A stretch of 64,000 nucleotides of DNA from Sinohyriopsis cumingii. Its lineage: Eukaryota > Mollusca > Bivalvia > Unionida > Unionidae. The notes under the pieces are model-generated. The model ran no database searches. It was not told the DNA's origin and was given only the letters and a program-made list of their open reading frames with translations. Positions 1,495 through 62,083 of the stretch are shown here, one piece after another. The translations under genes and the position numbers were made by a program. The first letter of the stretch is position 1. Every line of letters starts with the position of its first letter. The DNA lies in NCBI GenBank assembly GCA_028554795.2, contig CM068831.1, forward strand, positions 58,651,180 through 58,715,179, read 5' to 3'.

Positions 1495-1531
1495 TTCTTT
1501 TCGAGAAATGTGGGCGGCCCTGAAAAGGGCC
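1495..1531 (-). terminator. Histone-type 3' stem-loop for the coiled-coil gene (Polinton 1)
   Basis: On the minus strand, GGCCCTTTTCAGGGCC (1516-1531) starts about 26 bp after the stop codon of the 1557-2135 gene and is followed by GCCCA and then TTTCTCGAAAAGAAA. The 16-nt core fits the histone 3' stem-loop rule (six-pair stem, UUUC loop), and the purine-rich tail sits where a histone downstream element would lie. It matches the copy at 61012-61027. Confidence 0.85.
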
Positions 1532-2607: not shown

Positions 2608-2652
2608 CCAAAGGCCCTTTTCAGGGCCACCCATATTTCTCGAAAAGAGAAT
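2608..2652 (+). terminator. Canonical histone-type 3' stem-loop (Polinton 1)
   Basis: GGCCCTTTTCAGGGCC at 2613-2628 is preceded by CCAAA and followed by ACCCA, matching every position of the metazoan histone mRNA 3' stem-loop consensus including both flanks. TTTCTCGAAAAGAG follows about 7 nt later as a possible histone downstream element. It starts 24 bp after the stop of the small basic gene. This is the best copy in the window. Confidence 0.9.
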
Positions 2653-2694
2653 GACTTTTCAATTGCCTACCCCTTTTTTAAATTTTTTAAAAAA

Positions 2695-4145: not shown

Positions 4146-4185
4146 AATTTATTTTTAAACTTTCGTTAAATTACTAAATCACGCA

Positions 4186-4210
4186 CACACACACACACAC
4201 ACACACACAT
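4186..4210. repeat. (CA)n microsatellite
   Basis: An uninterrupted CA run of about 25 bp just after the SINE. Confidence 0.9.
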
Positions 4211-45504: not shown

Positions 45505-45510
45505 CAGCAT
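45505..45510. repeat. Polinton 2 target-site duplication, left
   Basis: CAGCAT directly before the element; the identical copy follows the element at 62409-62414. A 6-bp duplication is the hallmark of Polinton integration. Confidence 0.9.
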
Positions 45511-45839
45511 AGTAGTAAGGTGGGGCACTATACGTACATTGGAAATTAGCATTACTGAGACCCCTGGGTGAATATACGTACAATGGAAATTTAACATGGC
45601 GAAAAATCGTGGGTTAATATACGTACAAGGGGAATTAACATGGGAAAAAATTGTGGGCCGACATACGTACAAGGGGAATTTAACATGGGAATAGAGTTTG
45701 GGGGTTATTTAGGGACAAAGGGGAACTGAAAATGGGATCTTTTTTTTTTTTAAATTTTTTTTTAAAAAAGGGGTAGGCAATGGAAAGGCTATCTCTTTTC
45801 GAGAAATATGGCTGGCCCCTGAAACGGGCCTTTGGGTTT
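45511..45839 (+). repeat. Polinton 2 left terminal inverted repeat
   Basis: About 329 bp, the inverted counterpart of 62084-62408. The outer 200 bp hold four to five iterons of about 44 bp with a GTACGTATA-type core; the inner part holds a T/A run, GGGGTAGGCAATGGAAAGGC and a histone-type stem-loop. Confidence 0.9.
45795..45830 (-). terminator. Histone-type 3' stem-loop, left TIR copy (variant)
   Basis: On the minus strand GGCCCGTTTCAGGGGCC (45814-45830) follows the stop of the 45862-46251 gene by about 30 bp and is followed by AGCCA and TTTCTCGAAAAGAG. One base longer and less regular than the other copies. Confidence 0.65.
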
Positions 45840-45861
45840 TCTTCTTCTTCTTCTTCTGCTT

Positions 45862-46251
45862 CTAGTTTCTTCTTTTTGTCCACCAAGTTTTTATTTTATC
45901 TCCAACACTCTTTCTCTTCTTTTCTTTCTTTTTTTTCTCCTGCTCTTCTTTCTTCTTCTCTTCCTCCTCTTCTTTCTTCCTCTTTTCATTTTCTTCTTCT
46001 TTTTCAATTTTTTCATTCCATGCTCTCATCCTTATCCTTTCCTCTTCATCCTCCTTCTCCTCCTTTATTTCTTTCAACAGATCACTGATGATTACCTTTA
46101 TTTTTCGTAAATTGTTTATCTCCATCTTCACTCGACGGGGACTATAAGAATAGTGATCCTCGTTTAGGTTAACCAACATTTGCTCTATCATTCCTAAATT
46201 GTCGAGGACGTTTTGCAATTTTTCCATTTTGTCCATTTGGTTAGAAGCCAT
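45862..46251 (-). CDS. Polinton accessory protein L1, coiled coil, 129 aa
   Basis: 129 residues. The amino half (KMEKLQNVLDNLGMIEQMLV ... DLLKEIKEE) resembles the starts of the two neighbouring small genes, so these are tandem paralogues. The carboxy half is a lysine/glutamate helix (KKEEEEEKKKEEQEKKKKEK) ending KTWWTKRRN. Promoter block at 46312-46341 and histone-type stem-loop at 45814-45830. I do not recognise the family; function unknown. Confidence 0.65.
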   Translation of the reverse strand: MASNQMDKMEKLQNVLDNLGMIEQMLVNLNEDHYSYSPRRVKMEINNLRKIKVIISDLLKEIKEEKEDEEERIRMRAWNEKIEKEEENEKRKKEEEEEKKKEEQEKKKKEKKRKSVGDKIKTWWTKRRN

Positions 46252-46311
46252 CTTCTTTTTTTATTCTTTGCAGAATGGTTTGAACGACGAATACTGTGGG
46301 TTCTTATACGA

Positions 46312-46341
46312 AAAGCGCGGACGTGAAGGAAAACATCCCCC
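46312..46341 (-). promoter_or_regulatory. Shared 30-bp promoter block, copy 1
   Basis: On the plus strand it reads AAAGCGCGGACGTGAAGG then AAAACATCCCCC. It is repeated almost exactly at 47275-47304 and 48141-48170, each time 40-60 bp before the start of a left-end gene and directly before a TATA-like sequence (here GTATAAGAA). Confidence 0.8.
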
Positions 46342-46363
46342 TACTTTTTCATTTCATATAATA

Positions 46364-46718
46364 AAACCCTAACTATACTTTCCGCATACCCTAAGAAACA
46401 ATTAACAAAATCCATAATCTACTATCCACACCATCCTACGTGAGCGCTTACAAAACCCAAACTATATTCTCCACATACGCTAAGAAACAATAAACAAAAT
46501 CCATAATCTACTATCCACACCATCCTACGTGAGCGCTTACAAAACCCAAACTATACTCTCCACATACGCTAAGAAACAATAAACAAAATCCATAATCTAC
46601 TATCCACACAATCGTACGTGAGCGGTTACAAAACCCAAACTATACTCTCCACATACGCTAAGAAACAATAAACAAAATCCATAATCTACTATCCACACAA
46701 TCGTACGTGAGCAGTTAC
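46364..46718. repeat. Polinton-internal minisatellite, four units of 89 bp
   Basis: Near-identical units containing CACATACGCTAAGAAACAAT and ATCTACTATCCACAC(C/A)ATC. A decayed unit lies at about 47435-47535, showing that a gene-plus-spacer module was duplicated. Confidence 0.9.
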
Positions 46719-46790
46719 AAACACAAACACACAAACACATACTCTCGCACTATGAAAAAAGAGTTAGTGTTTATAATCACACTACTCTAC

Positions 46791-46822
<32 letters not shown>

Positions 46823-46841
46823 TGGCAAATCGATAGTTATT

Positions 46842-46877
46842 TCTTTTCTAGAGTATTGGGTAGCCCTTAAAAGGGCT
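46842..46877 (-). terminator. Histone-type 3' stem-loop with compensatory stem change (L2)
   Basis: Minus strand AGCCCTTTTAAGGGCT (46862-46877), six-pair stem and UUUA loop, followed by ACCCA and then CTCTAGAAAAGAAA. Compared with GGCCCT...AGGGCC, the outer G-C pair is replaced by A-U on both sides. It starts about 28 bp after the stop of the 46906-47214 gene. Confidence 0.85.
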
Positions 46878-46905
46878 GTTTTTTTTTAACTCCAGATGCA
46901 CCTAT

Positions 46906-47214
46906 CTAATGGTTGCACCTTCCTGGCCTGGCGCCACACACGCATCTTCTTCCCCAGTCTCCTTTCACCTTTCTTCTGGGGAGCGCAGAGGGAGGATGAT
47001 TCGCTTCAACACCCCAATCCTCTGTTTCGGGAACATTGTACGACATCCTCTCTTCTAGTTTCTTTTCCTCCTCTTCCCTCTGTCTTCTCTCCTCCTCTTC
47101 GTTCTTCATTCTTTCCTCTTCTACTATAGCCTCCGCGGCCAGTTCATTTAACAGGCGCCTGACATATTCCAGATGTATCTGGAGTTCAAGAAGTTTGCTT
47201 ATTCTGCTATTCAT
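46906..47214 (-). CDS. Polinton accessory protein L2, 102 aa
   Basis: A paralogue of L1: start MNSRISKLLELQIHLEYVRR, then an acidic helix (EEERMKNEEEERRQREEEE), then a tail rich in basic residues and cysteines (GRRCVCGARPGRCNH) not found in L1. Promoter block at 47275-47304 with TATAAATTG after it. Function unknown. Confidence 0.6.
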   Translation of the reverse strand: MNSRISKLLELQIHLEYVRRLLNELAAEAIVEEERMKNEEEERRQREEEEKKLEERMSYNVPETEDWGVEANHPPSALPRRKVKGDWGRRCVCGARPGRCNH

Positions 47215-47274
47215 TCTTGTGTTGATCTATCAACAAGGGTAGCTAGACTGCCCAGCGAGTTTCAATTTATAGTG

Positions 47275-47304
47275 AAAGCGCGGACGTGATGGAAAACATC
47301 CCCC
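47275..47304 (-). promoter_or_regulatory. Shared 30-bp promoter block, copy 2
   Basis: Differs from copy 1 at one base; followed on the minus strand by CTATAAATTG. Confidence 0.8.
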
Positions 47305-47654
47305 TAAAACATAAAATTGATCTTACCTAGATCATAACCAAAAAACAACAACGCGCCGACCTAAAAGAAACACTCACTCACTTTTTTATGCTACCCATCA
47401 CTATTTTAAAATTTTTTTATAAATCACTTCAATAGACTATCCACATACGCAAAGCAATCCAATCTAACCCCAAGTTTACACCTCAAACACCAAAAAAAAA
47501 AGACATCATTTTAATCTACTATCCATACCAACTTACTTAACCACTTACAAACACAAACACACAAACACATACCCTCACTTTTTTTTTATAAAAAAGAGTT
47601 AGTATTTATATTCACACTACTCTAACTACACACATTGGCAAATGGATTGTTATT

Positions 47655-47689
47655 TCTTTTCTAGAGTATTGGGTAGCCCTGAAAGGGCT
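47655..47689 (-). terminator. Histone-type 3' stem-loop (L3), one loop base shorter
   Basis: Minus strand AGCCCTTTCAGGGCT (47675-47689), then ACCCA and CTCTAGAAAAGAAA. The A-U outer pair is as at 46862. Confidence 0.75.
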
Positions 47690-47699
47690 GTTTTTTTGT

Positions 47700-48101
47700 T
47701 TGCTATGACATTCTTTTTTAGTTTCTAAGAATGCGATGTCCTCTGAGGATAGACTTTCTGGCGATAGGTCTGCTTCTTCGAAAAGAGAAGAAGAACTCTT
47801 TGGTGTCGATACGACAATCGACAAAGCCTCTGTCAGCTTCAGGTTGCTGCTGCTGTTGTTGTTGTTGCTGCTGTTGCTGCTGTCTCTGAAGTCTGTACTT
47901 CTCTGTCTATTCTTCTTTTTCCCTGTTCATTTCTTCTCTGAAGAGCTCTTCTATCAGGTCTTCAGTGATTTTTAACATTCTCACATTCTCTATTTCTTCT
48001 GGCTTCGGTATCAGACTGTGTCTGACCCGATGCAAATTCACGTAGGCTTCGTTGAGTTTAGCTAGTTTGGAGCACATCTTCTTAGGAGGATGAGTCGACA
48101 A
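47700..48101 (-). CDS. Polinton accessory gene L3 (broken)
   Basis: The third left-end paralogue. Its start has the same helical pattern (KLAKLNEAYVNLHRVRHSL ... DLIEELFREE), followed by a glutamine-rich run and a serine-rich acidic end (SPESLSSEDI). The coding region is interrupted about once, and its right boundary is set by the following stem-loop. Promoter block at 48141-48170. Confidence 0.55.
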
Positions 48102-48140
48102 TGGATGGTTAGACTGGAAACAACCCCGGTTCTTAAAGTC

Positions 48141-48170
48141 AAAGCGCGGACGTGAAGGAAAACATCCCCC
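48141..48170 (-). promoter_or_regulatory. Shared 30-bp promoter block, copy 3
   Basis: Identical to copy 1 over the block; followed by CTTTAAGAACC as a weak TATA-like box. Confidence 0.75.
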
Positions 48171-48282
48171 ACACGGTTTTTGAGTCGCAACGTTTAGTGA
48201 GTGTCATGAGAGGGATAGTAAGAAATGAAAGAGCATCAATCCAACATTCTTATAGCTAAACAAAAGACAAAGGCATTTTTTT

Positions 48283-48462
48283 CAAAACACAACATTTTTT
48301 ATTCAAAAATCACTTAACACTAAACAACAACTCTAACATTTTTAACAATAATCCAACAATATAACATCAAACAATTTTTTTTCAAAACACAACATTTTTT
48401 ATTCAAAAATCACTTAACACTAAACAACAACAACTCTAACATTTTTAACAATAATCCAACAC
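48283..48462 (-). terminator. Polyadenylation signals in a 100-bp duplicated unit after the capsid gene
   Basis: Two near-identical units, each with TCAAAACACAACATTTTTTA and a minus-strand AATAAA (48298-48303 and 48398-48403), lie about 110-210 bp after the capsid gene stop. No histone-type stem-loop is here. Confidence 0.7.
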
Positions 48463-48510
48463 TAAAAGTTTCTCCACTAGGTAAAGAGGGATAACAGTCT
48501 TCCATGGTTT

Positions 48511-49824
48511 CTAGTAATCTAGGATGACTTCTCTCAAACTGTTGATTTCTATCGTATTGTCGAAATCTGCATACAGGATGACGTTCACCGTTTCATCAGG
48601 GTCTCGGTCTTTAAACTGAATTTCCACACGAATCTGGCCGGATTTTATAGGGTGGAAATGTCCCTCGTCGCTGCCTTGGTCTGGAGTGAAATCGAAAGCC
48701 CACAAAGCGTAGCCTCCTGCATAATCCTCGTACGTAATACCGTGACTGGTATTGGTTCCTAACTGTCCGGTGGCTTCGTACAGGGACAAGTACGATCTCA
48801 AGTAATTCTTCTTGGTAAAGTCAGGTTCGAAAGGTCGGGTACACAAGGTCTTGCCATCGCGACTGACTTCGATTTTGGACACGCCAAAGTGTTGAAAGTA
48901 GAAAGGATTTTTTTCGGCAGCTCCGTTGAAGGCTGTATTCTCGACGATACCAACGATCAAACGTTTGGGTAACTGTCCTTGGAACAGATGATCTTCGATC
49001 ATGGATCGCTGTCCCTTGGGAATGGTGAAGGTTTTCACTTCCACGCGTCGTATGGGATACTTGGCGGTCGTTCTGCTCAACGTCTGACTGATGTCGTTTC
49101 CCACTTTAGGTAACACTTCCACACGGCGTACGTAGAGTCTGGCTTCTAGGATTTTGGTTTTGTAACCGTCACTATCAGCCATCAAATGGAAAGCGGCACT
49201 GCTACGATTCAGTCTCAGGCGGACATCCACCCCGTTCAGCAAATACTTTTCTTGCAACCACATGTCCAAATGCAAACGATCCATCAGTTCTAAACTTGTG
49301 TCGGCTCCCGTGATTCTCTTTCTTCGTTCTACAAATCCATCATTGTTGTCTTTCTTTTCATCAGTTTCCAATATTTCAAATTTGGTAGGTTCGTCAGCTT
49401 CCCATACCACACAGTCATTGAGATGAGTGTTCTTGGCATCTATTCCGTAGGTCGAGAGATTTTCCAGGTAGGCACGATAAGGGTAAGTATCCATGCTGCT
49501 ACTGACTAGTTTGTTATTCAAGTACAAGTCCACTCCACTGAACAAGGAATGCATGAAATTGTTGACGGGAGCTACTGCTTCATCGTCTATAGCACCTCCA
49601 GTCTTATCTAGAATTTTGACTTTCAGGTACAAGTAACTGCTATTCAGATCGATGTAATCTTCGGGCTGTCCTTTGATTTCAAACTCGATGGGAGCGGAAT
49701 CGGTCAGTGAGGAGACGGGGTGAAATTCCACCCACTGGGATTCTTGCATCGTCATCATCGTGGGGAGCATAGCAAACAGATCCAGTTCCGTCTTGGAACA
49801 AGCGCAAGATACTCGGTGCATCAT
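48511..49824 (-). CDS. Polinton major capsid protein (double jelly-roll), 437 aa
   Basis: Recognised by the Polinton capsid signature near the start (FHPVSSLTDSAPIEFEIKGQ; NNFMHSLFSGVDLYLNNKLV; DTYPYRAYLENLSTYG). Length fits the family, whose members are predicted double jelly-roll proteins that form icosahedral shells. The frame is open throughout. The first 20 or so residues may be upstream of the true start. It lies next to the minor virion gene with a 25-bp gap. Treated as a fossil component. Confidence 0.9.
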   Translation of the reverse strand: MMHRVSCACSKTELDLFAMLPTMMTMQESQWVEFHPVSSLTDSAPIEFEIKGQPEDYIDLNSSYLYLKVKILDKTGGAIDDEAVAPVNNFMHSLFSGVDLYLNNKLVSSSMDTYPYRAYLENLSTYGIDAKNTHLNDCVVWEADEPTKFEILETDEKKDNNDGFVERRKRITGADTSLELMDRLHLDMWLQEKYLLNGVDVRLRLNRSSAAFHLMADSDGYKTKILEARLYVRRVEVLPKVGNDISQTLSRTTAKYPIRRVEVKTFTIPKGQRSMIEDHLFQGQLPKRLIVGIVENTAFNGAAEKNPFYFQHFGVSKIEVSRDGKTLCTRPFEPDFTKKNYLRSYLSLYEATGQLGTNTSHGITYEDYAGGYALWAFDFTPDQGSDEGHFHPIKSGQIRVEIQFKDRDPDETVNVILYADFDNTIEINSLREVILDY

Positions 49825-49849
49825 TTTTTTTTTTTTTTTGTCTCTTTTC

Positions 49850-50266
49850 TCAATAATCGAAAACGTCTAAGTCTCGAACGGTTCTTCTTTTCTTGACCTT
49901 TCTCGCTTGAAGTCTGGTGAAAGGGTGTTTTCTTCGTCGTCTCTTTCTGCCTTGTCCTTGCTGAATGCCTGACTCGGTAGCGTGCAGGGCATTTATAGGT
50001 GTTTCTCGTTGGCCTAAAATGTCTTTGCCCGTTTGCAGCAAGACATTTTTGCCTGCCCTCATGAAGGCTTCTTTAGGGTTTTGTTTGTCGATGATGACAT
50101 TTTGGAGAAATTCTTTGCCTTGCGTCAGTGCCGCATCTTTCAAGGCGTGCAATCCGCGTGTCACCATCGGTTTCAACACCGGGGCCACCGAACGAAAGGC
50201 CGATTTTAACATATCTCCTAAACCGTGTCCTCGCTGTCGAGCAACCCCTCGGTACACTGGATACAT
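49850..50266 (-). CDS. Polinton minor virion protein candidate, 138 aa
   Basis: Starts MYPVYRGVARQRGHGLGDML, a glycine/arginine start followed by amphipathic helix, typical of the small Polinton protein next to the capsid gene; ends with basic clusters (GRKRRRRKHPF, KVKKRRT). By position and composition it compares with adenovirus pVI/pX-type proteins, which is inference. A TATAAAAG lies about 95 bp upstream (50360-50367). Confidence 0.65.
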   Translation of the reverse strand: MYPVYRGVARQRGHGLGDMLKSAFRSVAPVLKPMVTRGLHALKDAALTQGKEFLQNVIIDKQNPKEAFMRAGKNVLLQTGKDILGQRETPINALHATESGIQQGQGRKRRRRKHPFTRLQARKVKKRRTVRDLDVFDY

Positions 50267-50274
50267 GACTTACT

Positions 50275-51199
50275 TACGAGTCGTGAGAGAACCGTTTTCG
50301 AAAATGGAGTTTCACCGTGACTTTTCCTTTGGTGAATGGAATATTTTGTCCCAAATCTCCTTTTATAGCAATGTTGACCGTGTCCAAATACGACTTACTG
50401 ACAGGCAAATAGTGAGGATGGACAAATTCGCGGTGGACGTGGTGTTTCCACCTTCCTCGTCAGTGTTCGTGGCAGAATCCACTTTGAAAGGAATGACACG
50501 CAGTAACGGGACGGAGGTGTGTCCCACCACGTTGTACTCCACCACATCGGAGTATACGAACATCAAATTCAGTCCTTGGTTCAGTTCTACCGGGGCACGA
50601 AATAACTTGCTAAAAGACTCGTTGTCGTAAACGATGAGTAATTCGTTTTTCTTGAGCATGGTCTTTCTCATGTCCATGTCTCCGCCCAACATGTCAAACA
50701 ATTCAGGACAAAATAAAATGGACATGATTTTATTTCGTTCAAATTTCATCAAGAAGCGACGAGCTGCTTTGTGGTACTCCATGGTGACACTTTTGTTGAC
50801 ATGCTCCAAAGCTTTCAGAAACACGACATTAAACCTGGAGGCTATGGTGCTGACCAAATGTTGACCACTAAAATAATAGCCTGGGGGAATGAACAAGTGA
50901 TAGGTGGTGTACTTTTGATTTTGTGTACAGGTTTTCTTGTCATATTTGACATTGCTATCCATCCACTGTTGCATTTGCTCGTCATGAACTTCCACATCAA
51001 AAAAATTTTGATTGGGAAGGACATTGAGGACTTGGGTCGGGTGAATCATTTCTACTAAAGCCACTTCCCAATGGGCTTCGTGATCTAACTGGATGGCCTG
51101 AGGTAATTTGGCCGAGTAACAGCACAACGTGTTCTTGGGAAACACCTCCATGGAACTGTCACTGGGTAAAGTTAAGTAAAATTGGCTTTGGTGACTCAT
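50275..51199 (-). pseudogene. Polinton penton-like minor capsid protein (broken)
   Basis: The start, FYLTLPSDSSMEVFPKNTL, and HWEVALVEMIHPTQVLNVLP are the signature of the Polinton single jelly-roll (penton) protein. The gene extends to the start of the minor virion gene and is interrupted about once. Confidence 0.8.
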
Positions 51200-51621
51200 A
51201 ATTCCAGAGTTCTGTGGCTGTCCGAGGGGTTACTGGACGTCAGAGGCGTGTCTCCGTCTAAAATGGGGTTCTGTTTGTGGTTGAAGTGGTGACTGGCACT
51301 GGCACTGGACACAAGGTTCCCGGGGTTCCCGTTCGAGGAGAATTTCAGGGAGGGATTAGGAAGCAGGTAACCGATGCAACTGCTCAATAAAATGGTCCAC
51401 AATTGTTTGTCTCCTTCTTGCAAACTCAAATTGGCGATGGCTGCCCCGATGACACAATACACCACGAAGATTTGGCAGAAAAAGACGATTTGCGTTTTAG
51501 GCACACGTTCTCCACACCACACCCACAAGGGTTGTTTTTGTAAATCTTGCACAGAAGAACTAGGTGAAGAAGGAGTGGTCGACGTAGCTCCGTCTGCTGT
51601 GTGAAAGGGCATGATGGTCAC
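51196..51621 (-). CDS. Polinton membrane protein, 141 aa
   Basis: A serine-rich start, then two hydrophobic segments (IVFFCQIFVVYCVIGAAIA and LWTILLSSCIGYLLP) separated by a short polar loop, as in the small membrane protein found in many invertebrate Polintons. The tail is polar. It overlaps the penton-like gene by 4 bp and the integrase gene by 4 bp. Role unknown. Confidence 0.65.
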   Translation of the reverse strand: MTIMPFHTADGATSTTPSSPSSSVQDLQKQPLWVWCGERVPKTQIVFFCQIFVVYCVIGAAIANLSLQEGDKQLWTILLSSCIGYLLPNPSLKFSSNGNPGNLVSSASASHHFNHKQNPILDGDTPLTSSNPSDSHRTLEL

Positions 51622-52727
51622 TTCTTTTTATAGTCGATGACTTGCGAAGCGTCGATCCAAGAATCAAAACTGGGTGGATATCCTTTCCAACGTACTTTGA
51701 CTTCTTTGACACGTCGTTTGCCCACTTTACGGGTTCTGCGTTCGAGAATGCTTTCGATGTCGTACACGTCGTCTTCTTTTTTGGTGACACGTTGTAACTC
51801 GGGCAAATAAAACGTTCCTTTGAGCACTTCTCCGTTCATGTCTTCCAATTTATAGACGGCAGGATGACGGCCATGCACTCGTCCAGTGACGCGAAACAAT
51901 TCGGTCGTCCAGTTAGGTAAGTAACCTTTGTCGAAAGTGCGTTTGGTTTTGCCAATGCGTACCCAATCTCCTACGGCCAACATTCCACTTTTCTCGGGGA
52001 CAGCCCTCGTCGGGGACGTACCAAACAGACGCTCAAACACCAACACTTCGTTGTCGGGAGTCACGTCTTGCGGGGCACGTCCGATGCTTTGATGGTAAGA
52101 TTGGTTGTACGCTTGCACCAGGTGCGGTAAGATGTCAATGTACTTCAGAGTGTGGTGATGCGTAAAATATTTCCACATGCGTTCTTTCAAAGTGCGTTGA
52201 AAACGTTCCACGATGCTGGCTTTGGTTTCGGGATTCTCGGTGGTAAAAAAATGAATGTCACGTTTCTTTAATTCTTTTTGGAAAGCTTGGTTCAGAAATT
52301 CGGTGCCTTTGTCCGTTTGCCATCGAAGAGGTTGACGACCACTTTGTTTCAACACCCGTTGCAGGGCTCGCACTAACTCGCTGCTCGATTTGGAAGTCAA
52401 GGGCACGACCCAGGCAAATTTGGAAAAGACGTCGATGACACAAAACAAATATTTGTAGCCACGATTGTAGCTGGCCAAATGAGAGACATCGGCTAAATCG
52501 GCTTGCCATTGATGATCGATGCCTTCCACTCGGGTGCGACTTCTGGCAAACTTGCGTCGAATGGGTTTGTGTAAAGTGTAGGTAGCTTGTTCTTGTAACC
52601 ATCGTTGCACTTGAGGTAAACGAAGACTTTTCAGTCGCGTTTTGGCAGCACGATACAATTTTTGAACTCCTGCGTAACCTGCAGGATGGGAGGGATCGTA
52701 GTAAATGCTGGCTAAGACTTTTTCCAT
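51618..52727 (-). CDS. Polinton retroviral-type integrase with chromodomain, 369 aa
   Basis: DDE core: first Asp in HQWQADLADVS, second in WQTDKGTEF, Glu in KASIVERFQRTLKE. A basic region precedes the core and a carboxy-terminal chromodomain follows (YDIESILERR ... VRWKGYPPSFDSWIDASQV). The enzyme family joins element ends to target DNA, and Polintons make 6-bp duplications, as seen here. The frame is open. The chromodomain may direct insertion to marked chromatin (inference). Confidence 0.92.
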   Translation of the reverse strand: MEKVLASIYYDPSHPAGYAGVQKLYRAAKTRLKSLRLPQVQRWLQEQATYTLHKPIRRKFARSRTRVEGIDHQWQADLADVSHLASYNRGYKYLFCVIDVFSKFAWVVPLTSKSSSELVRALQRVLKQSGRQPLRWQTDKGTEFLNQAFQKELKKRDIHFFTTENPETKASIVERFQRTLKERMWKYFTHHHTLKYIDILPHLVQAYNQSYHQSIGRAPQDVTPDNEVLVFERLFGTSPTRAVPEKSGMLAVGDWVRIGKTKRTFDKGYLPNWTTELFRVTGRVHGRHPAVYKLEDMNGEVLKGTFYLPELQRVTKKEDDVYDIESILERRTRKVGKRRVKEVKVRWKGYPPSFDSWIDASQVIDYKKK

Positions 52728-52748
52728 TTTTTTGTGTTGGTTGGTGTG

Positions 52749-53388
52749 TTAATAAGACACCCACTCTTGGGGGATGCTACTCTTTTTCTCTTGGGGTATT
52801 TTCTTGGATTGCAATGCTTTGCGTGTGCGGCCAGCAATAGGTGTCGAAGAGGAGAAGGATGTCTGAGCGGGGGATATCGGTTCTTGTTTCACTTCTGTCT
52901 TCACTTCTGTCTTCACTTTCTTTTTCTCTTGTGAGAAAGAAGGGGTGGCCATCATCTTTTTAATCCATCCAATTCTGGAGGTAGGTGGTGTTGTTAACTT
53001 GCATACTTTTTCTGGTGGAGTTTGAAACCCTTCCTCTTCTTCTCCTTTTTCTGTCTTGGTCACGGGTACTGGTGGCACTGGTACTGGTACTGGTACTGGT
53101 GCTGGACTTTTCATCAAGGTCTTAAAATCTTTCAGAGTGGGTAGAGCTGTTTCGTCTAAAGCTTTCTGGTGAAAGAATTGTAGTCGTTGCAAGAGTTGAC
53201 CGTACTTTTGCGATTTTTCTGTTTCGGACAAATCTTAGCGATCCATCAAGGACTGCAATTCGTGTTGTAACTGGGACATCTCGCTCAAATTGGGATTGGG
53301 AGGTAAATGCGGGGTGTGTTGTTCTTGCCACCGATGGTATTCCATCCATCGTTTGTAAGGCACTAAAGATAGTTTTCGTCCTTCCATG
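52749..53388 (-). pseudogene. Polinton accessory gene of unknown function (broken)
   Basis: The start MEGRKLSLVPYKRWMEYHRW recalls the LVPY start of a common Polinton accessory protein. The rest includes a proline/valine repeat (PVPVPVPVPP) and a lysine-rich VKTEVK repeat. Interrupted about once. Confidence 0.5.
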
Positions 53389-53435
53389 GGGTTGTCAGGG
53401 GTCGATTCTGAGATCTTGGAACTTCCGAGGCCTTT

Positions 53436-53852
53436 TTATCTTGCTCCCACCAGTCCTACCAACATGGTTCCCAAGACTCCTTTCAGTATGGGGCCTAACA
53501 AGAGAGGTAAAATACCTCCACGTTGCACTAACATCTTCTTTTTTTGACAAATGGGAATTTTCTTTTGAACCATTTGGCGAAGAACGTGACGATGTTTGCC
53601 TAAGCATTGTTTCTGGTGTTTGGACAAAGGGATCGTGCCTTTCAAAACGTTCAAACAACATTCGCACACGGTATCGATGACCTCTTTGGAGGCTGTTTGA
53701 ATGAGTTTTTTTCGTAGGGGTGGAGAAGCTTTGGACAGGACAGATAACATGTCCCCATGTTTGGCTAAACGTGGTGGCAGTCCTTTCCTTTTCTTTCCTT
53801 GGGGTTTTCTGGAGGGTGACATCTTTGAGTCTTCAGGAGCACCAAAAAACAC
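53436..53852 (-). CDS. Polinton small basic protein with hydrophobic tail, 138 aa
   Basis: Basic start (KPQGKKRKGLPPRLAKHGDM), a cysteine cluster (VCECCLNVLKG), PLSKHQKQCL, and a glycine/leucine-rich hydrophobic end (ILPLLLGPILKGVLGTMLV). The pattern recurs in many invertebrate Polintons, but its role is not known to me. Related in style to the 54543-54800 gene. Confidence 0.6.
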   Translation of the reverse strand: MFFGAPEDSKMSPSRKPQGKKRKGLPPRLAKHGDMLSVLSKASPPLRKKLIQTASKEVIDTVCECCLNVLKGTIPLSKHQKQCLGKHRHVLRQMVQKKIPICQKKKMLVQRGGILPLLLGPILKGVLGTMLVGLVGAR

Positions 53853-53880
53853 TGATACCCGACTTGGTCACAGGCCTTTT

Positions 53881-54534
53881 TCATACTGGAACGCGTCGCC
53901 ACTGATTGTCTTGACGTCGTATTAGTTTGAGGACAGGCATGACACGTCGTGCAGGGGTACGTAACGGACTAAATCGAGCCAGTTCTTGCTTGGACAAATC
54001 CAGTAAACTTTGTAACATGCCCGATCTTTCTTGAACTTTGATTTTGGGAGAAGGTACTTTGTGAGCAGCAGCCACTGCTACTAAATTGGAAGGTCCTGCC
54101 ACTGGGGAAGTTCTTTTGGGGGTCATCAACGGAGAAGTTCTTGGTGTGATCAACGTCTCCAAGTACTCTTCAGTTCTGGGTGTCATTAACGGAGAAGTGG
54201 ACAAACGTGAAGCTGCCGGAGACGCAGTCACCGCCGTGGCAGGTCGTGGTTTGCGAGTGTAAGGTTGCGTCCTGGCCGAAGTGCCTCTCTTGCGACTAGT
54301 TTTCTGTCGACTTTTCTTTTTCTGGGGGCTTCTTTTCTTTTTCCGGGGTGGTGGTGGTGTCTGGTCAGAGGAGGGTCCTGCCACTGGAGAAGTTCTCCTT
54401 GGGGACCTGGTCTTTTTCTTCTTGGGGCTTCGTTGGACTTTTGTCTTGGGTATAACTTTGGGGGCATTAGGATCCCATCTTAAGAGTGAGCGAATGATGA
54501 CCCCTCCTAGAGTACCGCTCCCTCCAGGTTTCAA
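53881..54534 (-). CDS. Polinton SPKK-rich basic protein (core-protein candidate), 217 aa
   Basis: Dominated by lysine/arginine with SPKK/SPRR/SPQK motifs (RSPKKKKTRSPRRTSP, KRSPQKKKS) and repeats TSPLMTP and TSPVAGPS. SPKK motifs are minor-groove DNA-binding units of histone H1 and sperm histones, so a DNA-condensing role is a reasonable inference. No family recognised. Confidence 0.6.
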   Translation of the reverse strand: MKPGGSGTLGGVIIRSLLRWDPNAPKVIPKTKVQRSPKKKKTRSPRRTSPVAGPSSDQTPPPPRKKKRSPQKKKSRQKTSRKRGTSARTQPYTRKPRPATAVTASPAASRLSTSPLMTPRTEEYLETLITPRTSPLMTPKRTSPVAGPSNLVAVAAAHKVPSPKIKVQERSGMLQSLLDLSKQELARFSPLRTPARRVMPVLKLIRRQDNQWRRVPV

Positions 54535-54542
54535 AATGATTT

Positions 54543-54800
54543 ATTTTTTGGTTTGAGTGTCGATGCGGGGATCGGCCAGTTGGGCCAAAGCGACTTTGTT
54601 TCGATCGAAAAAGCGTTTGGTTTGATGAGGAATCTGAATGATTCCTTGGAGTAATTGACGTGCCTTCACTGTGAACCATCGTAAGACTTCTTTGAGAAGG
54701 CTTCTAAGACACGAGCTCGTGTTTGTGGATCTTTTTCTCGACTGATGCCATACAAGGCACGAATCAATTTGACGGGAAGATGCGACTGAAGGGACGTCAT
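54543..54800 (-). pseudogene. Polinton small helical protein gene (broken)
   Basis: The start SHLPVKLIRALYGISREKDP recalls the small lysine/leucine-rich Polinton proteins. A TATAAAAA lies 41-48 bp upstream (54841-54848). Interrupted about once. Confidence 0.5.
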
Positions 54801-54856
54801 GTTCGCACTGAGAGTGAGACAGACTAAAAAGGGTCTGAGGTTTTTATAGATTTTTT

Positions 54857-55600
54857 TTATGGGGAGTGAAATGAAGTCGAGGACGGAGACGTGTACAGGA
54901 CAGGCCCTCCGTCTTGGCACCAGTGGTGAAACAAGTGGGTACGAAATCGCAAATCCTCGGGAGTCGTAGGTTTCAAATCGACGAGTAAATAGGCGTGTGG
55001 AGTTTGAGTGGCATCGTCGTACGCCTGAGTCAGCCAAGGCGTTCCTAACTGTTTGGCTAAGACTTGCACTTGCGATTTATCTCGAGGGCTTTTAAACAAG
55101 ACCACGTAATGCGCATTGAGACTGATGGTGCGATGGGCTTTACTTTGTTGAAACAAATTTTGGGTGATGTAAACGACACTGGCATTACGGTGATGCCCTT
55201 TGCGCGTGAACCACAGTTTAATTTCTTCTTCGTCTTCTCCTAACATGTCGTCGAAAATGACCAAATGGGTTAGACGGGAGTCAGAGACGATGCCATCGTC
55301 TTCTTTAGGAATGCCTTCCACAAACACGATGGAATCGCCTTGACTTTCTCGCAAGAGGCTGTACGCCGATTGCCACTCTTTGTAACACCACACGATTCGT
55401 TGAGGGGGTCGATCGATCAAATGATGTTTGTGTTCGATCAAACGTTTGACGAATTCGGTTTTGCCTGAACCGCTAGGTCCAGCAATGAGCATGTTAAAGG
55501 GATGGCGAAGATAGAAAGCCTCCCAACTGGCACGATCTAAGTGTTCGTCGATGACTTTGACAGTAGAGGAAGAGGGAGCAGAGACAGCAGAGGTAGCCAT
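54857..55600 (-). CDS. Polinton FtsK/HerA-type packaging ATPase, 247 aa
   Basis: Walker A (AGPSGSGKTEF) and Walker B (THLVIFDDMLGE) with a following VVYITQNLF sensor-like segment, typical of the genome-packaging ATPase of Polintons. A minus-strand TATATAAAC box (55646-55654) lies about 50 bp before the ATG at 55600, so the longer frame that opens at 55639 probably starts too early. The frame is open. Confidence 0.9.
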   Translation of the reverse strand: MATSAVSAPSSSTVKVIDEHLDRASWEAFYLRHPFNMLIAGPSGSGKTEFVKRLIEHKHHLIDRPPQRIVWCYKEWQSAYSLLRESQGDSIVFVEGIPKEDDGIVSDSRLTHLVIFDDMLGEDEEEIKLWFTRKGHHRNASVVYITQNLFQQSKAHRTISLNAHYVVLFKSPRDKSQVQVLAKQLGTPWLTQAYDDATQTPHAYLLVDLKPTTPEDLRFRTHLFHHWCQDGGPVLYTSPSSTSFHSP

Positions 55601-55669
55601 GGTGTGAGAAATGTCACTTGCGACACGAAAAACAAACAAGACAAGAGTTTATATACTTTTTCAGAACAC

Positions 55670-55675
55670 GTTTAT
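55670..55675 (-). terminator. Polyadenylation signal after the pPolB group
   Basis: AATAAA on the minus strand about 145 bp after the stop of the short frame at 55819-56088 and before the ATPase TATA box. Confidence 0.55.
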
Positions 55676-55818
55676 TGAATGTTTCAAACATGAATACGAA
55701 AGACAAAATGCATAAAAGCCAAAGGCTTAAGTACAAGAATAAAAGGCACATGATAACCATGAACGTGGAATAAACACAAGTGTCTGTACAACATGTTTTG
55801 GGTAAAGTTCTAACAGTT

Positions 55819-56088
55819 CTATAGTAGGGGTAAGGTCACACAAGTGTCCTCCCGAAAGGGTCTTTCAGGCCTGTCCACGACAGTCCTGTCCTGGGTGACG
55901 GGTTCTTCTGGCACCGTCACTAACACAGGTTGAAAAGTAACTTTTTTCCTTGAATAACTCTCGTGCATACTGGGCCACCTCTTGTGTCCAAGCCTCAAAA
56001 CCCTGGTCTCGGTGATGTCCAACATTTGACTCCTAACCAATCTGGTTTCTTCTTCGTCAACGACATGGTAAGTTACTTCAATGAACAA
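55819..56088 (-). CDS. Polinton short frame downstream of pPolB, 89 aa
   Basis: Starts MFIEVTYHVVDEEETRLVRS; no motif recognised. It has its own TATATAAA box (56118-56125) inside the end of pPolB, which supports it as a real gene. Function unknown. Confidence 0.5.
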   Translation of the reverse strand: MFIEVTYHVVDEEETRLVRSQMLDITETRVLRLGHKRWPSMHESYSRKKVTFQPVLVTVPEEPVTQDRTVVDRPERPFREDTCVTLPLL

Positions 56089-56092
56089 TGAA

Positions 56093-59000
56093 CTATCGAT
56101 CTTGCCTAGGGTTCCTTTTTATATACAAACCAATACCGACGTGACCGTACGGTAAGGTGAAGTGATTGGGAAGTCGCACTCGCTTCTGGTATACAATTTG
56201 ATAGACTTTTTCCAAGGGTCGACTGACGATGTGGTGAGTGGGTAAACGTACAATCTTGTTCGGTTGATAGGTGGTCACTTTAAAGTTTCCATCCTCTCCC
56301 GATTGCAAGGCTTCTTTCAATACCCCAAAGTTGACCACTCGACTGGTACGATGATTCAGAGTCAGTCCTTTCACTTTGCACGTCGTGTGCACTTCTCCTT
56401 GTTTGTCCCGGTATTCGTAGCCGTAATTTTTGGGACCACCACTGACGAAACTTAGAATTTTGTCGTCGGGATGCTCGTCTGTCCAGGCTCCTAAACGGTC
56501 TCCTTCGATGTCAGGGTGCTGTTGAATCGGGTGATGGATGTAGATGCAACTGTCCGTGTCAAAGTACAGGACGCGTTCTTCTAACAGTTCTAAAGCTTCG
56601 TACAATTTTAAGCGAGCATGAGCTGTCACGTAAGCCGCAATGACGACATTTCCAAAAGGGTCGTCTTGTACAAAGTCCAGATCTTCTTCGTAATTGACCA
56701 AGATCAAATCCTCTCGAACGACGTCCACGTGTTTCATGTATTTGGTTTTGTCGTGAATCATCTGGAAGTAGCGGGAAGGTTCTGTCAAATATTCCGTCTT
56801 GGGTAAACACGGTCGTTGTGCCATTTTACCCCACAAGCAATTTAACATCACTTTGGCAAACGATCGCCTGCCTTCGTTTTTTTCGATGTGGTCTAAAGAG
56901 ATGCCTTCTTGTGCGTAGTATTTCTCTTTGAATTGTATTTGGTCTTCGGGAGTGTGACACCAGGAAGGATAGCCGCTGGCTTCTTGTTTCAGTTTCAAAA
57001 AGGCATCCACGTAGTCGACGAAAATGCCTTTCTGAGTAGGGTCACCCTTGTGGTACTGTTGTGTCTTGGGAAAGTGACAAATTTCGTACACTTCTAACAG
57101 TTGGTATCCCATGTCCAGAGCTTTGAACAATTCCACGCTGACCCAGGTTCCCGTCAAGGCACGTTCTTCCTGGCTGTGATGGCAAGGTTGGTCCTGGTTG
57201 CACGTTTCGGCACAAGTACGGCACAAGGGAAACATCAGTTTGCCTTGACAATGGTGAGGTAAGACGGGATGGTATAGGTTCGTAAGAGGCAAAACTTTAC
57301 ACTTGATGAGACCTTCGTATTGTCGAATGTTTTTCAGGTCGATGTGTTCCGTGAACAATTGCGGGTGCCCTACAGGAAAGCGACAATATTTGCACACGTA
57401 GGGATACAGCGAACACACGTCCAAGTATTTGATTTCTTCTCCTTTCTCTTCGTCGGCTTGGTACAGCAAACAGGTGGCATTGGTCCTTCCTCCGTACAAA
57501 CTATCCCTCGGGTTCAGCGGGTCCATGAACTGGTAACTTTCCACGAGGCGTTTAAACTCGGGATCGGTTTTCAAACGGTGATCGTACTCGTGTTCCCACA
57601 TTTCCACCACTTGGTATCCTTGCTGTTCTAACTTTAGGCGTCGCTGACAAGTGTCCTGGTACAAGTCTTCCATGGTTCGTTGCAAAAACTGATTTTTAGT
57701 GTCACGGTCAGGGTAACAGACGGGACATCCGTGAAATAAGCAACCGTTAAACTCGTACACGATCTTGGGGTTTTCTAAGTCCCAGCCATCTACCGAATAC
57801 GTTCCGATGGTCTTTTCGCCTCCTCCGTTGCGGGCATGCTGAATCCATTTGTCTTCCTTGTCGCACAAGTAATGTAACCAACGTAGGGCTTTGACCGAGT
57901 ATTGACGCTTGAAATAGTGGGTCGTTTGAGGACTGATGACAGCCACGGTGTTTTCAGGCATGAATCGTTGGCGGTACACTAAGGAACACGCTTTGGCAAT
58001 GGTGCAAGCTTCTTTCAAAGGATCGACCCCTCCGTGTTCCATGAACAGTTCTCGAAATTTTCCACAGCAACGTCGTAAAATGTCCACGTCGGAACGACAA
58101 TACTTTAACATTTCTTCCTGAAAGTCGAAGGGGTCAGAGGCATGAGCCTGGTACCAAGCGTAGAAAGCTTCTCGTTGTTCGGTACGCATGTTGTCGGGGT
58201 CGTAATAGTGAGCCTCAGGTAAATGGGGTAGAACGGCATGTTGATTGGCTTCCGTATTGAAAAAGTGTGGAAAGTACCCTTTAGCCATTTCTGTCATTCC
58301 AAACGTTTTAGGCATTCGACTCAAAGGCATGGCCAAGTAACTCATCGAATCTTTAAACTGTACTTGTCCCACTTGCATGAAAGTGATTTTGACTCCGTTC
58401 AAAGTGACTTTAGGACGCTCGGTGCCTTGTTCCGCATAGTACCTCAAAAGAAACTGTCCATGGTATCCGGAGAAATTGTGAGCCATCACCGTGGCATGAT
58501 GATGACAATCTCCGTAACGTTCGATGTCCTCTTGGCTCCACGTCTTGTCGATGGGGTCTAAGACCCATTGGGCAAAATCGGCTAACGTGTTTGGTCCCCG
58601 AAAGATTTTTTCACGTCCTCCAGGAATCTTGCTGCAGTGAGGGCAATGACTGAAGATAGGTTCTTGAATGCACTTCTCGCACGCTCGATGAGCCACGCAG
58701 AAATTAGGGATGTGAATGCCGGTCTCTTGCATGCATTCGAAATCGAAAAAGATGAAATTGCCTTTCTTCTTGTGACCGTCCTCTTTCTCTGGTGGGGGTT
58801 GGTATTTTTGCACGTAACATTCGTGTTCCAAGTCCACGATGTGGTGACAAATGTGACATTTTTTCTTTCCTCGACATACGTGTGCCTTGGCATTGTTGGT
58901 AAGTATGCCTTGTCCACACGTAGGGCACAATCTCAGGAGTTGACAAGCACGTTTCTTCTGTGAACCTTGTGTTTTCAAATGTTGCTGGTAACAGGCAGGG

Positions 59001-60066
59001 CTGACAAACGTGCGCAGACAAGTTGAACAAGACACTGGTTCTTCGCTCAGACAGGGTGGAGAGGCCAAACATCCTGGGCATTTCAATCCACAATGCTTGT
59101 GTTGCTCTCGATTGTTATAACCATAATCACATTTCTCACAATAATAACTGTATCCCAGGAATCCGGTGATACTGGTAATGGTATCGAAATGGTCATCGTG
59201 ATAATAAAGGTGAATGTATTTTCCGTCCTTAAAATCCTGGCCTCGAAACAACAGAGACCCGCGCATTTCTTGAGGGTGCACTTTCAAGGTGTAGCGTGGA
59301 GCTAGGGCATCTTGCAATTTTTGCATCTCAGGAATGCCACAGGGTGTGTCTTTGGACAGGCCAGCTTGTTGCGACAGGAGTTCTGCTTCGTTTCGTTGTT
59401 TGGCTCGATCGGATCGTTGAATAGTGTTCCAGGTTCTTTTCCATTCTGTCGTGTCGTTCTTGTTGGCATAGGTTCGTCCCACCACGATGGCACGGGTAAA
59501 CACATCTGGTCATGAGGATTGTGAATTTGGACAAGACTACGCTTAATGCTGCGAAGCTCGTTCACCAATAACATCTTTTTGCGTCCTGTCCCTTGAGGAA
59601 GAGAGACATGGGCCATTTTCAGTGTGGCTTTACCATCGGTGATGTCAAACTGGTCATTAGATTGTTGTACGTGTTGAATCTTGTCCATGATTTTGGAAGG
59701 GGTTAGTTCTGCAGGTCTGCTAAACTCGATCCAAACAGGGGATTTCAAACCGTCGTGATCTATGGATAGTGTCAAGCGATCGTCTTCTTTGGGTTGACAT
59801 TGTCGCTTGAGTGCGGTGAGCAAAGAATCCCACATCTCGGTGATGAACCCTTCTGCTTTCTCCAAGGGTACGTCGGCCTTGAAATCTTTAAACTTCACCG
59901 TGTAGGTGTAAGCCGTGGTTCTAAATTTTCTAGAGGAGCGCTTTTCCGTCTCTCGAATGGAATAGTATTTTTCAGGGTTGACTAAGGGTGACGAACTTGG
60001 TTTAGAGGTTTCAAATTCTGGTTCACTCATGTCCTCTTCAAAATCACTGGTATGAATTTGTGCCAA
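56093..60066 (-). pseudogene. Polinton protein-primed family B DNA polymerase (pPolB), broken once
   Basis: About 1,300 residues. An acidic amino part is followed by a zinc-cluster region (many CxxC pairs: CEKCDYGYN, CPGCLASPPC, CPTCGQG), then the 3'-5' exonuclease (FIFFDFECMQ; AHNFSGYHGQF; YCRSDVDILRRC) and the polymerase (SLYPYVCKY; KVMLNCLWGKMAQRP; LYFDTDSCIYI; KVKGLTL). This is the standard Polinton replicase that starts on a terminal protein. The motif residues are all present, but the whole gene is interrupted about once. Confidence 0.9.
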
Positions 60067-60169
60067 GATTTCAGCCCTGGTACGAGGCGATAGATCACGT
60101 TTCTGCCTCTTACTTTCTTCTTCTTCTTCTTTCTTCTCGAATGAATGGGATCGTTTTATCTTGAGTGCA

Positions 60170-60294
60170 AAACGTCAAATGACTCAAGTTTAAACACCAT
60201 AGACTAATTTATAGTCTTGGCAAACCAGCGTATATAAAAAGGGTGTGTGTCTTGTCCTTTCACTATTCATTTCACTCTCAAGCCGAGCACAACG
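60170..60294. promoter_or_regulatory. Divergent promoter, pPolB / zinc-knuckle gene (Polinton 2)
   Basis: An imperfect palindrome AGACTAATTTATAGTCT (60201-60217) contains a minus-strand TATAAAT; a plus-strand TATATAAAAA lies at 60231-60240, about 55 bp before the ATG at 60295. Same arrangement as at 640-793. Confidence 0.7.
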
Positions 60295-60765
60295 ATGGAA
60301 GAGACTACCCAGATGGAACGTTTCGTCAGAGCTTTGCGAGGGGTCATTAGAAAATTCTCTTCAGACCAGCCGACGGACTACTCTCCTTCCCTTCGAGATA
60401 AAAGTCAAGATACTTGCTATATCTGTCAGAAGAAAGGGCATTGGTCTTCAGAGTGTCCAGACCGTCAAAAAAGAACAAAAACAGGGGCTAAAAAAGACAA
60501 AAGTCAAGATACCTGTTATTATTGTAAAGAAAAAGGACATTGGTCTCCAGATTGCCCAAAAAAGAAACAAGAGGAGTCAGAAGAAAAGAAGGATTCTTCA
60601 GAAGAAGAGAGGGATTCTTCGGAAGAAGAGAGGGATTCTTCAGAGGAAGAAGAGGAAGAAAGAAGACAATTCTATTTAAAAGAGGCAAAGAAACAGGAGA
60701 AGAAAAGAAGAAGGGAAGAAAATGAGGAAAAAACGGTGAAGAAATTCAAAAAACAGAGAGACTAA
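60295..60765 (+). CDS. Polinton accessory protein with two CCHC zinc knuckles (copy 2)
   Basis: 156 residues, the counterpart of 794-1261, with both knuckles intact (CYICQKKGHWSSEC, CYYCKEKGHWSPDC). The acidic repeat tail (RDSSEEERDSSEEE) differs in length from copy 1, as expected for slippage in a repeat. The ATG at 60295 is preferred because the TATA box lies at 60231. Confidence 0.8.
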   Translation: MEETTQMERFVRALRGVIRKFSSDQPTDYSPSLRDKSQDTCYICQKKGHWSSECPDRQKRTKTGAKKDKSQDTCYYCKEKGHWSPDCPKKKQEESEEKKDSSEEERDSSEEERDSSEEEEEERRQFYLKEAKKQEKKRRREENEEKTVKKFKKQRD

Positions 60766-60989
60766 ATAATGAGAAAGAAGAAGTGTACGAACTTTTTAAA
60801 GTGTTCTGTGGTGAATTGTGAATTGGATTGTAAAAAATGGATAAAAGAATACATGAATGATATAAGGTAAGTGTCTTTGAGTTTTGATTTTAAAATAAGA
60901 AGCTAAATTCAAGCACTCATACACAGACACGTACTATAAGGGTAAAATGGGTGGGTTTATTTTTGAGTTATTGGCAAATTGAAATTGTA

Positions 60990-61027
60990 TTTCTTTTCGA
61001 GAAATGTGGGTGGCCCTGAAAAGGGCC
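60990..61027 (-). terminator. Histone-type 3' stem-loop for the coiled-coil gene (Polinton 2)
   Basis: Minus strand GGCCCTTTTCAGGGCC (61012-61027) followed by ACCCA and TTTCTCGAAAAGAAA; it starts 28 bp after the stop of the 61055-61615 gene. Confidence 0.88.
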
Positions 61028-61054
61028 TTTTTTCTTTATGGTGTAGGAGTGAGT

Positions 61055-61615: not shown

Positions 61616-61834
61616 GTTGAATCACTGTCGCATAGATTGACTGCACACAAGCGCTAACGAATCTATATAGACCACGTGACGTCACAGACTGCTCTCTTCG
61701 GATTGGATGCGAGCTGACTGAATTTTTTCACGCGTGTTCGGATTGGTGAATGAATTCAATAGGTTTCAATCCTTCCTGTACCTATAAATAAGCGCAGTTC
61801 ACTGCATTGATTCACCTATTCTCGTCGCTTCAAG
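61616..61834. promoter_or_regulatory. Compact divergent promoter with CRE, E-box and CCAAT boxes (Polinton 2)
   Basis: TATA (-) 61662-61669, CACGTG 61673-61678, TGACGTCA 61677-61684, GATTGG at 61701 and 61741, TATAAATA (+) 61783-61790. Every motif and its spacing is kept relative to 2136-2354, while bases between motifs vary. Confidence 0.78.
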
Positions 61835-62068: not shown

Positions 62069-62083
62069 TATTAATATTAACAT

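Follow-up and report, generated by a model that had tools for sequence, protein, structure and literature searches.

Two Polintons and their accessory genes

The window, i.e., the whole 64-kb stretch of DNA analysed here, contains one complete Polinton and the right part of a second. The complete element (45511-62408; 16,898 bp) starts with AGTAGT and ends with ACTACT, lies between the two copies of a 6-bp target duplication (CAGCAT/CAGCAT, 45505-45510 and 62409-62414), and is bounded by terminal inverted repeats at 45511-45843 (plus strand; complementarity of the two pairs of arms, 95% and 88%) and 62079-62408 (minus strand; located by an inverted-repeat search). The second copy, cut by the window start, occupies positions 1-2925, ends by eye in ACTACT (2920-2925), and has homologues of ORF242, CCHC, Qrich, and MWTT.

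The minus strand of the complete element encodes an integrase with rve and chromodomain (51618-52727; PF00665, E 1.7e-14), an A32/FtsK-like packaging ATPase (54857-55600; PF04665, E 1.8e-7, above the cut-off), and a family B DNA polymerase (56093-59326; DNA_pol_B_2, PF03175, E 5.7e-40 for a match spanning 56093-59503); a CCHC zinc-knuckle protein gene lies on the plus strand (60295-60765). Judging from its position, the 437-residue product of 48511-49824 (minus strand) is probably the major capsid protein (MCP). This predicted MCP had no match in Pfam or among PDB sequences and has 986 relatives; among the 120 listed, those from Mercenaria share 51-52% and those from oysters 43-47% identity with it, and the bivalve ones are named "uncharacterized". 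The terminal inverted repeats, the target duplication, the (AGT)2//(ACT)2 ends, the rve integrase, and the A32-type ATPase identify the element as a Polinton. With its family B polymerase and the chromodomain of its integrase it resembles both Polinton/Maverick elements, for which this form of the ends is quoted in the text of PMC8097293, and animal adintoviruses, and its predicted capsid protein has relatives in Mercenaria and oysters, so that a bivalve host is probable.

The remaining genes considered here are five accessory genes, for which we coined the names MWTT, Qrich, K129, R102, and S56. MWTT is present in both Polintons (2355-2588 and 61835-62068, plus strand) and encodes a protein of 77 residues, basic and with an Arg-rich C-terminal part in the left copy. 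Qrich is likewise present twice on the minus strand (1557-2135, 192 residues; 61055-61615, 186 residues). K129 (45862-46251; 129 residues), R102 (46906-47214; 102 residues), both charged, and S56 (47907-48077) all lie on the minus strand. K129, R102, and S56 are similar in charge and look coiled-coil-like by eye, but sequence comparison gave no clear kinship (best cross-match among the five accessory genes, E 0.033), and we rejected the idea that the three form one coiled-coil gene family. Pfam assigned none of the five to a histone family, and nothing meaningful was matched in NCBIfam or PHROGs by those submitted to them. The predicted structure of MWTT had a mean pLDDT of 52.8 and was set aside; a role of the accessory proteins in nucleic-acid binding or assembly is a guess.

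Histone-type gene ends in the Polintons and in the host

The preliminary description had reported a perfect histone stem-loop, flanked by CCAAA and ACCCA, 24 bp past the stop codon of a Polinton gene. This stem-loop is real, and its occurrence is wider than first noted. The Rfam Histone3 model matches 2608-2653 (plus strand) at a score of 40.8 bits against a cut-off of 34 (E 1.4e-8), well above background; the 16-mer stem-loop GGCCCTTTTCAGGGCC (2613-2628) has CCAAA before and ACCCA after it and starts 24 nt past the MWTT stop (ORF 2355-2588), and a downstream element, GAAAAGAG, follows at 2642-2649 (plus strand). Three further sites in the window, each comprising stem-loop and downstream element, pass the cut-off: the end of the left Qrich gene (1491-1536, 16-mer 1516-1531, minus strand; 35.1 bits, 25 nt past the stop), that of the right MWTT gene (62088-62133, 16-mer 62093-62108, plus strand; 35.6 bits, 24 nt), and that of the right Qrich gene (60988-61032, 16-mer 61012-61027, minus strand; 41.2 bits, 27 nt). 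All four have the RF00032 form, with a 6-bp stem, a 4-nt loop, and an ACCCA-type flank, and the two top-scoring sites reach E values of about 1e-8.

Two more sites on the minus strand fall below the cut-off. R102 ends in a stem-loop of an A-T class (46837-46882, 16-mer 46862-46877; 31.1 bits, E 5.6e-5) 28 nt past its stop, and S56 in a shortened one with one base fewer in the loop (47650-47694, 15-mer 47675-47689; 20.5 bits, E 0.54); both are accompanied by the downstream element. In the window, S56 stops 216 nt before its stem-loop, compared with 23-32 nt at three loci elsewhere in the genome (L015, L022, and L024), relative to which the open reading frame ends early; we conclude that the S56 frame is shortened in the window copy. 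Finally, reading of the sequence behind K129 revealed a degenerate stem-loop in the left terminal repeat (45814-45830, minus strand), with one extra base and one change, which the Histone3 model does not match. The window thus contains a degenerate site besides four that pass the cut-off and two that fall short of it; they are spread over two Polintons, and every one of these hairpins stands 3' of an accessory gene in the sense orientation. The Histone3 scan gave no match near the ends of the polymerase, ATPase, or integrase genes, nor elsewhere in the window; the CCHC and MCP genes likewise have no sense stem-loop, and the MCP gene has AATAAA/ATTAAA signals at 48403 and 48303.

The signals were compared with those of the histone genes of the same species, whose genome has 114 H4 matches, most of them about 8.3 kb apart in tandem. 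In one histone repeat (L079), the genes for H4, H2B, H2A, H1, and H3 all have a stem-loop 27-38 nt past the stop, with Histone3 scores of 35.0-39.4 bits; the hairpin is of the same kind as in the Polinton genes and lies at a similar distance. The downstream element is AGAAAAGA in H4, H2B, H3, and H1 and CGAAAAGG in H2A, and begins 12 nt (H4, H2B, and H3) or 13 nt (H1 and H2A) after the stem, so that AAAAG starts 14 or 15 nt past it (the H4 value of 14 was obtained by reading). The purine element of the Polintons has the same core and offset as that of host H1, H2A, H2B, H3, and H4. Since the host's own histone genes carry this element at the same spacing, the purine-rich stretch that had been noted at the expected position of a histone downstream element can be equated with the downstream element of this host. 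When the words common to the Polinton and the histone repeat were compared, the three longest were a 24-nt promoter element, discussed below, and two 17-nt stem-loops; the fourth, a 16-mer that the integrase end has in common with the coding sequence of H3, was taken for chance. In total, 41 14-mers are common to the two sequences, against 0-6 in 20 single-base shuffles.

The position of some hairpins raises the question of whether they act as DNA, in replication, packaging, or terminal-repeat recognition. The stem-loop of the right MWTT gene sits within the right terminal inverted repeat, at its inner edge, and the degenerate one lies in the left repeat, as this reading would have it. We nevertheless consider it very improbable: the other stem-loops follow internal genes in sense, and neither the host-matched element 14 nt further on nor the absence of hairpins after the CCHC and MCP genes would be explained. 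Because internal genes also carry the stem-loop, we rejected a DNA-only role at the terminal repeats as the main role of these hairpins.

When gene ends were folded, the downstream element folded on itself in three of four cases and paired partly with upstream sequence in the fourth. The left Qrich copy has AATAAA immediately 5' of its stem-loop, so that polyadenylation may be possible there. Searches for the trans-acting factors in the genome were uninformative: neither U7 snRNA (Rfam RF00066) nor, in unspliced genome DNA, the SLBP domain (PF15247) gave a match, and in both searches the controls were silent too. A U7 pattern search gave 40 matches against 54 for the control, and none of six small stretches taken from it was U7-like. 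Repeated units at G000:C10:118969360-119022060, five of them 2.6 kb apart, contain GAATTTGTCTAGGAAAAGAAATG in the two that were read; as U7 candidates these units were rejected by Rfam and by the fold of two stretches.

Recurrence and conservation of the stem-loop

Throughout the genome (2.90 Gb in 1,138 contigs), the stem followed by 14 nt and AAAAG has 48,466 exact matches, host histone copies included, while the reversed control has none. Given this count and the E values of the two best sites in the window, the probability that the hairpins arose by chance is negligible, and we rejected such an origin on the Rfam scores and the reversed control. Stem-loops elsewhere in the genome score up to 45.6 bits (75 places scored). 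From these 75 places, drawn from 589,472 first-look candidates, the best 48 were analysed as loci, each called by one hairpin. Every one of the 48 has a match to one or more Polinton genes (in L032, to MCP only), and none has a match to H2A, H2B, H3, or H4, the four histones searched for. Across the 48 loci and the two window copies, the stop and the start of the hairpin are 15-36 nt apart in 87 of 99 accessory-gene rows: 32 of 34 for MWTT (the others at 7 and 88 nt), 32/33 for Qrich, 6/11 for K129, 14/16 for R102, and 3/5 for S56. The outlying distances come from rows in which the protein match stops short or the frame is broken. The CCHC and MCP genes are without a sense hairpin across the loci (for MCP, two rows only), and the notion that every Polinton gene carries the stem-loop was therefore rejected.

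As each locus had been called by a hairpin, we avoided circularity by separately counting the 53 gene ends whose hairpin did not call their own locus. The stem-loop is present in 51 of these, at no fewer than 13 of its 16 positions (MWTT 10/10, Qrich 21/23, R102 15/15, S56 4/4, and K129 1/1), GAAAAG follows downstream in 49, and all six pairs are intact in 42; L013 and L027, which have none, are Qrich matches that end short of the C-terminus. K129 has a perfect 16-mer in all ten rows besides that of the window, and in nine of the ten this 16-mer was the one that called the locus. We also located MWTT genes via the protein alone, picking 20 from the best 150 copies (18,118 first-look candidates) and reading 110 nt beyond the coding end. 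All 20 have both stem-loop and downstream element, 18 of them exactly and two with one change. Since the 20 are young copies (96-99% identical to the window MWTT, with 96-100% for the best-scored 150), they are evidence of presence and not of selection. Within this genome, the motif is present in related Polintons.

A look beyond the genome was made in IMG/VR. The strict stem pattern had no match there, and the three matches to a looser pattern, whose distance to the nearest closed 40-codon frame is 63-250 nt or more and which have AAAAG at offset 9 in two cases and not at all in the third, were judged to be background. No relatives of the polymerase, the capsid protein, or the MWTT relative P0001 were found in the same collection by a search that reaches close relatives only.

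In the gene-anchored alignment, 97 of 100 rows have a stem-loop, the misses being L013, L027, and the shortened loop of S56 in the window. Pairs 1-6 are formed in 95, 96, 94, 99, 99, and 98 of the 100 rows, and 87 rows have all six. G-C is the outer pair in 75 rows and A-T in 19, so both sides change; the A-T form is found on R102 and S56 genes. In 91 of the 97 rows with a stem-loop, AAAAG starts 14 nt past the stem, and in three it starts at 15 nt. A previous tally of every stem word in the loci (118 places, 120 counted), in which the 13/16 filter favours paired stems, left 14 of 120 without AAAAG[AG], including 11 of 31 in the A-T class; the background frequency of AAAAG[AG] is 0.27% per position.

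Mean pairwise differences between copies of MWTT (n = 12, non-callers and window copies) are 0.010 for the stem-loop, 0.021 for the downstream element, and 0.021 for the 8 nt before the stem, compared with 0.117-0.219 in the remaining blocks. For R102 (n = 16), the stem-loop differs by 0.061, the downstream element by 0.016, and positions +1 to +5 by 0.047; the spacer differs by 0.262, and sequence further out by 0.114-0.187. The Qrich values are 0.038 for the stem-loop, 0.117 downstream, and 0.049 upstream after removal of two rows without a gene end, whose inclusion had raised the stem-loop value to 0.149 in a first pass. A contrast of column conservation in a second alignment was significant for MWTT (p 3e-8) and Qrich (p 0.032) but not for R102 (p 0.097); in that alignment, the MWTT downstream element differs by 0.128 (n = 34, callers included).

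These values bear on the possibility that an ancestor captured pieces of a histone gene as passengers, and that the copies inherit the signals without using them. The 24-nt and 17-nt words that Polinton and host share without mismatch could be remnants of such a capture, and many copies are young, as seen in the 150 best MWTT genes. The evidence on the other side makes this reading improbable. Five genes without clear kinship all have a sense stem-loop near the stop, the MWTT stem-loop and downstream element differ far less between copies than most other blocks do, and the A-T class retains pairing through change on both sides. Moreover, the stem-loop is still recognisable in all 15 rows of R102 genes whose proteins are 39-81% identical to that of the window, and all pairs are formed in 12 of them.

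A histone promoter element and proposed S-phase expression

The 24-mer GATGTTTTCCATCACGTCCGCGCT is present in exact form in two promoters, that of host H2B and that of R102 (47277-47300, minus strand; 24/24 nt identical to the H2B element); a single mismatch separates it from the copies in host H1 and upstream of K129 (46314-46337, minus strand) and S56 (48143-48166, minus strand). The H2B and H1 copies lie at 779-802 and 4181-4204 of histone repeat L079, 83 and 81 nt before the ATG. Host H2A has an inverted copy upstream with four mismatches; no copy was found upstream of H3, and the best match upstream of H4 has nine mismatches. In 20 single-base shuffles of the window, searched on one strand, the best match to the 24-mer had seven mismatches. 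Across the loci (at most four mismatches, within 250 nt upstream), the element precedes all 23 starts tested for the three genes (K129 10/10, R102 12/12, and S56 1/1), 51-71 nt before the ATG, compared with none of 119 other starts (MWTT 34, Qrich 33, CCHC 29, ORF242 10, polymerase 9, and one each for ATPase, integrase, MCP, and mCP). Rows were dropped if the match began past residue 4 or if less than 150 nt of upstream sequence was present, which left 23 of 32 for K129, R102, and S56.

The genome contains 24,895 exact copies of the promoter element, host histone copies included, against none of the control. In the opening 3.8 Mb of contig C1, which contain the first 100 of the listed stem-loop places, an exact stem-loop unit follows the promoter element within 1.5 kb downstream on the same strand in 39 of 47 cases, and on the opposite strand in 0 of 47. 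The distance is 424-785 nt in 31 of the 39 and 1,271-1,475 nt in the other eight, where the stem-loop is probably that of the next gene. A stem-loop on the same strand upstream of the element (20/47) is expected for neighbouring genes. The same 3.8 Mb contains 18 Qrich/MWTT pairs.

MWTT and Qrich are transcribed divergently from a common 219-bp promoter (2136-2354 and 61616-61834), an arrangement that resembles divergent histone gene pairs. The right copy of this promoter contains two CCAAT boxes, TGACGTCA, CACGTG, and TATAAA. That it was copied from the host is unsupported, as it has 11 9-mers in common with the histone repeat, compared with a shuffled mean of 20.6. As a separate observation, TTTCTTTTAGGTCCGCGCG upstream of a host H4 gene (L055, about 61 nt before the ATG) resembles TTTCTTTTAGGTCGGCGCG upstream of R102 (47352-47370, minus strand), which is perhaps a second borrowed histone box.

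With the stem-loop and downstream element at all five genes and the promoter element at K129, R102, and S56, the Polintons have histone-type signals, and these three genes have them at both ends. We consider it probable, judging from these sequence signals, that MWTT, Qrich, K129, R102, and S56 are expressed like the replication-dependent histone genes of the host, in 3' processing as well as in regulation as a whole. SLBP binding, pairing with U7, cleavage, and a missing poly(A) tail are established for histone mRNA, and the 3' signal confers S-phase coupling on animal histone mRNA. By analogy, host SLBP would bind the stem-loop of an accessory transcript and U7 snRNP would pair with the downstream element, AGAAAAGA and CGAAAAGA being the candidate pairing sequences; the pre-mRNA would be cut about 5 nt past the stem, and the mRNA would carry no poly(A) tail. 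Transcription and stability would then track S phase, such that accessory proteins would appear during host DNA replication, the core genes being without promoter element and histone 3' end.

A rival reading, clearly less likely in our view, retains the 3' processing and places its benefit elsewhere than in S-phase timing, e.g., in export, in storage (for instance in oocytes), or in escape from poly(A)-dependent surveillance. MWTT and Qrich lend it some weight, since they have the 3' signal without the histone promoter element, and selection may therefore keep the 3' end alone. K129, R102, and S56, on the other hand, also carry the H2B/H1 promoter element, which points to transcription together with the histones. 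As our confidence in histone-like expression refers to processing and regulation jointly, and this rival includes the same processing step, the two likelihoods overlap. S-phase coupling is the natural reading of the signals, given what the 3' signal does in animals and the presence of the promoter element on three of the five genes. That element adds weight to the earlier suggestion of a tie between the accessory genes and host DNA replication, the tie itself being something we infer.

The accessory genes resemble metazoan replication-dependent histone genes (RF00032) in stem, loop, proximity to the stop, downstream purine element, short unbroken reading frames, and H2B/H1 promoter element, but their products are not histones by Pfam. 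To our knowledge, no animal mRNAs other than those of replication-dependent histone genes normally have a stem-loop end in place of poly(A), and we know of no earlier mobile element with its own non-histone genes on the histone programme. Giant viruses have palindromic hairpins at gene ends; as far as we know, these are not of the histone type and have no U7 element. Compared with other Polinton/Maverick elements, those described here are set apart by accessory genes with histone 3' ends, three of them with histone promoter elements. The preliminary description knew of no account of the signal in Polintons. This still holds for the open-access papers listed by our searches: no title or opening abstract lines among them describe a histone 3' signal on genes of a mobile element or virus, and in the main text of PMC8097293 neither "histone" nor "stem-loop" occurs. 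Related elements have, however, yielded a bare count: six matches to the Rfam histone 3' UTR stem-loop among 8,300 polinton-like virus and virophage genomes (PMC12220804). The family is the same, but the text of that survey, which covers protist elements, gives the number and says nothing of genes, hosts, a downstream element, a promoter, or function. The text of PMC11071296 mentions histone-like proteins in other animal viruses and does not contain "stem-loop", and histone mRNAs of the clam Lucina are described in PMC6210712 as having stem-loops, with purine elements partly missing.

The 48,466 stem-loop units and 24,895 promoter copies amount to signals in the order of a hundred-fold more than those of the assembled histone genes. 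On the bolder proposal that this Polinton lineage is an S-phase satellite of the host histone system, and the first mobile element with non-histone genes on the histone expression programme, we are evenly divided. If true, it would constitute a new route by which selfish DNA senses DNA replication, the histone 3'-end pathway would not be exclusive to histones, and a possible absence of accessory transcripts from poly(A)-selected RNA-seq would be explained. Transcription of even a small part of the copies could bring competition for SLBP, U7, and the factors of the histone locus body. The timing of Polinton expression becomes testable, and natural variants of all three signals (stem-loop, downstream element, and promoter element) are available in the thousands.

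Some minor observations concern MWTT. A second inverted repeat, TATGTTAAT...ATTAACATA, spans the MWTT stop codon directly 5' of the stem-loop (2581-2604 and 62061-62084); its two window copies differ in mid-sequence, and both are foldable. Among 5.8 billion proteins, MWTT has two relatives only, P0001 and P0002. By our own reading of the protein, P0001 starts upstream, in sequence that fits the MWTT promoter, and P0002 reads past the gene end into a peptide that fits the stem-loop and downstream element in frame, a hint at the protein level that the same gene end may be present there.
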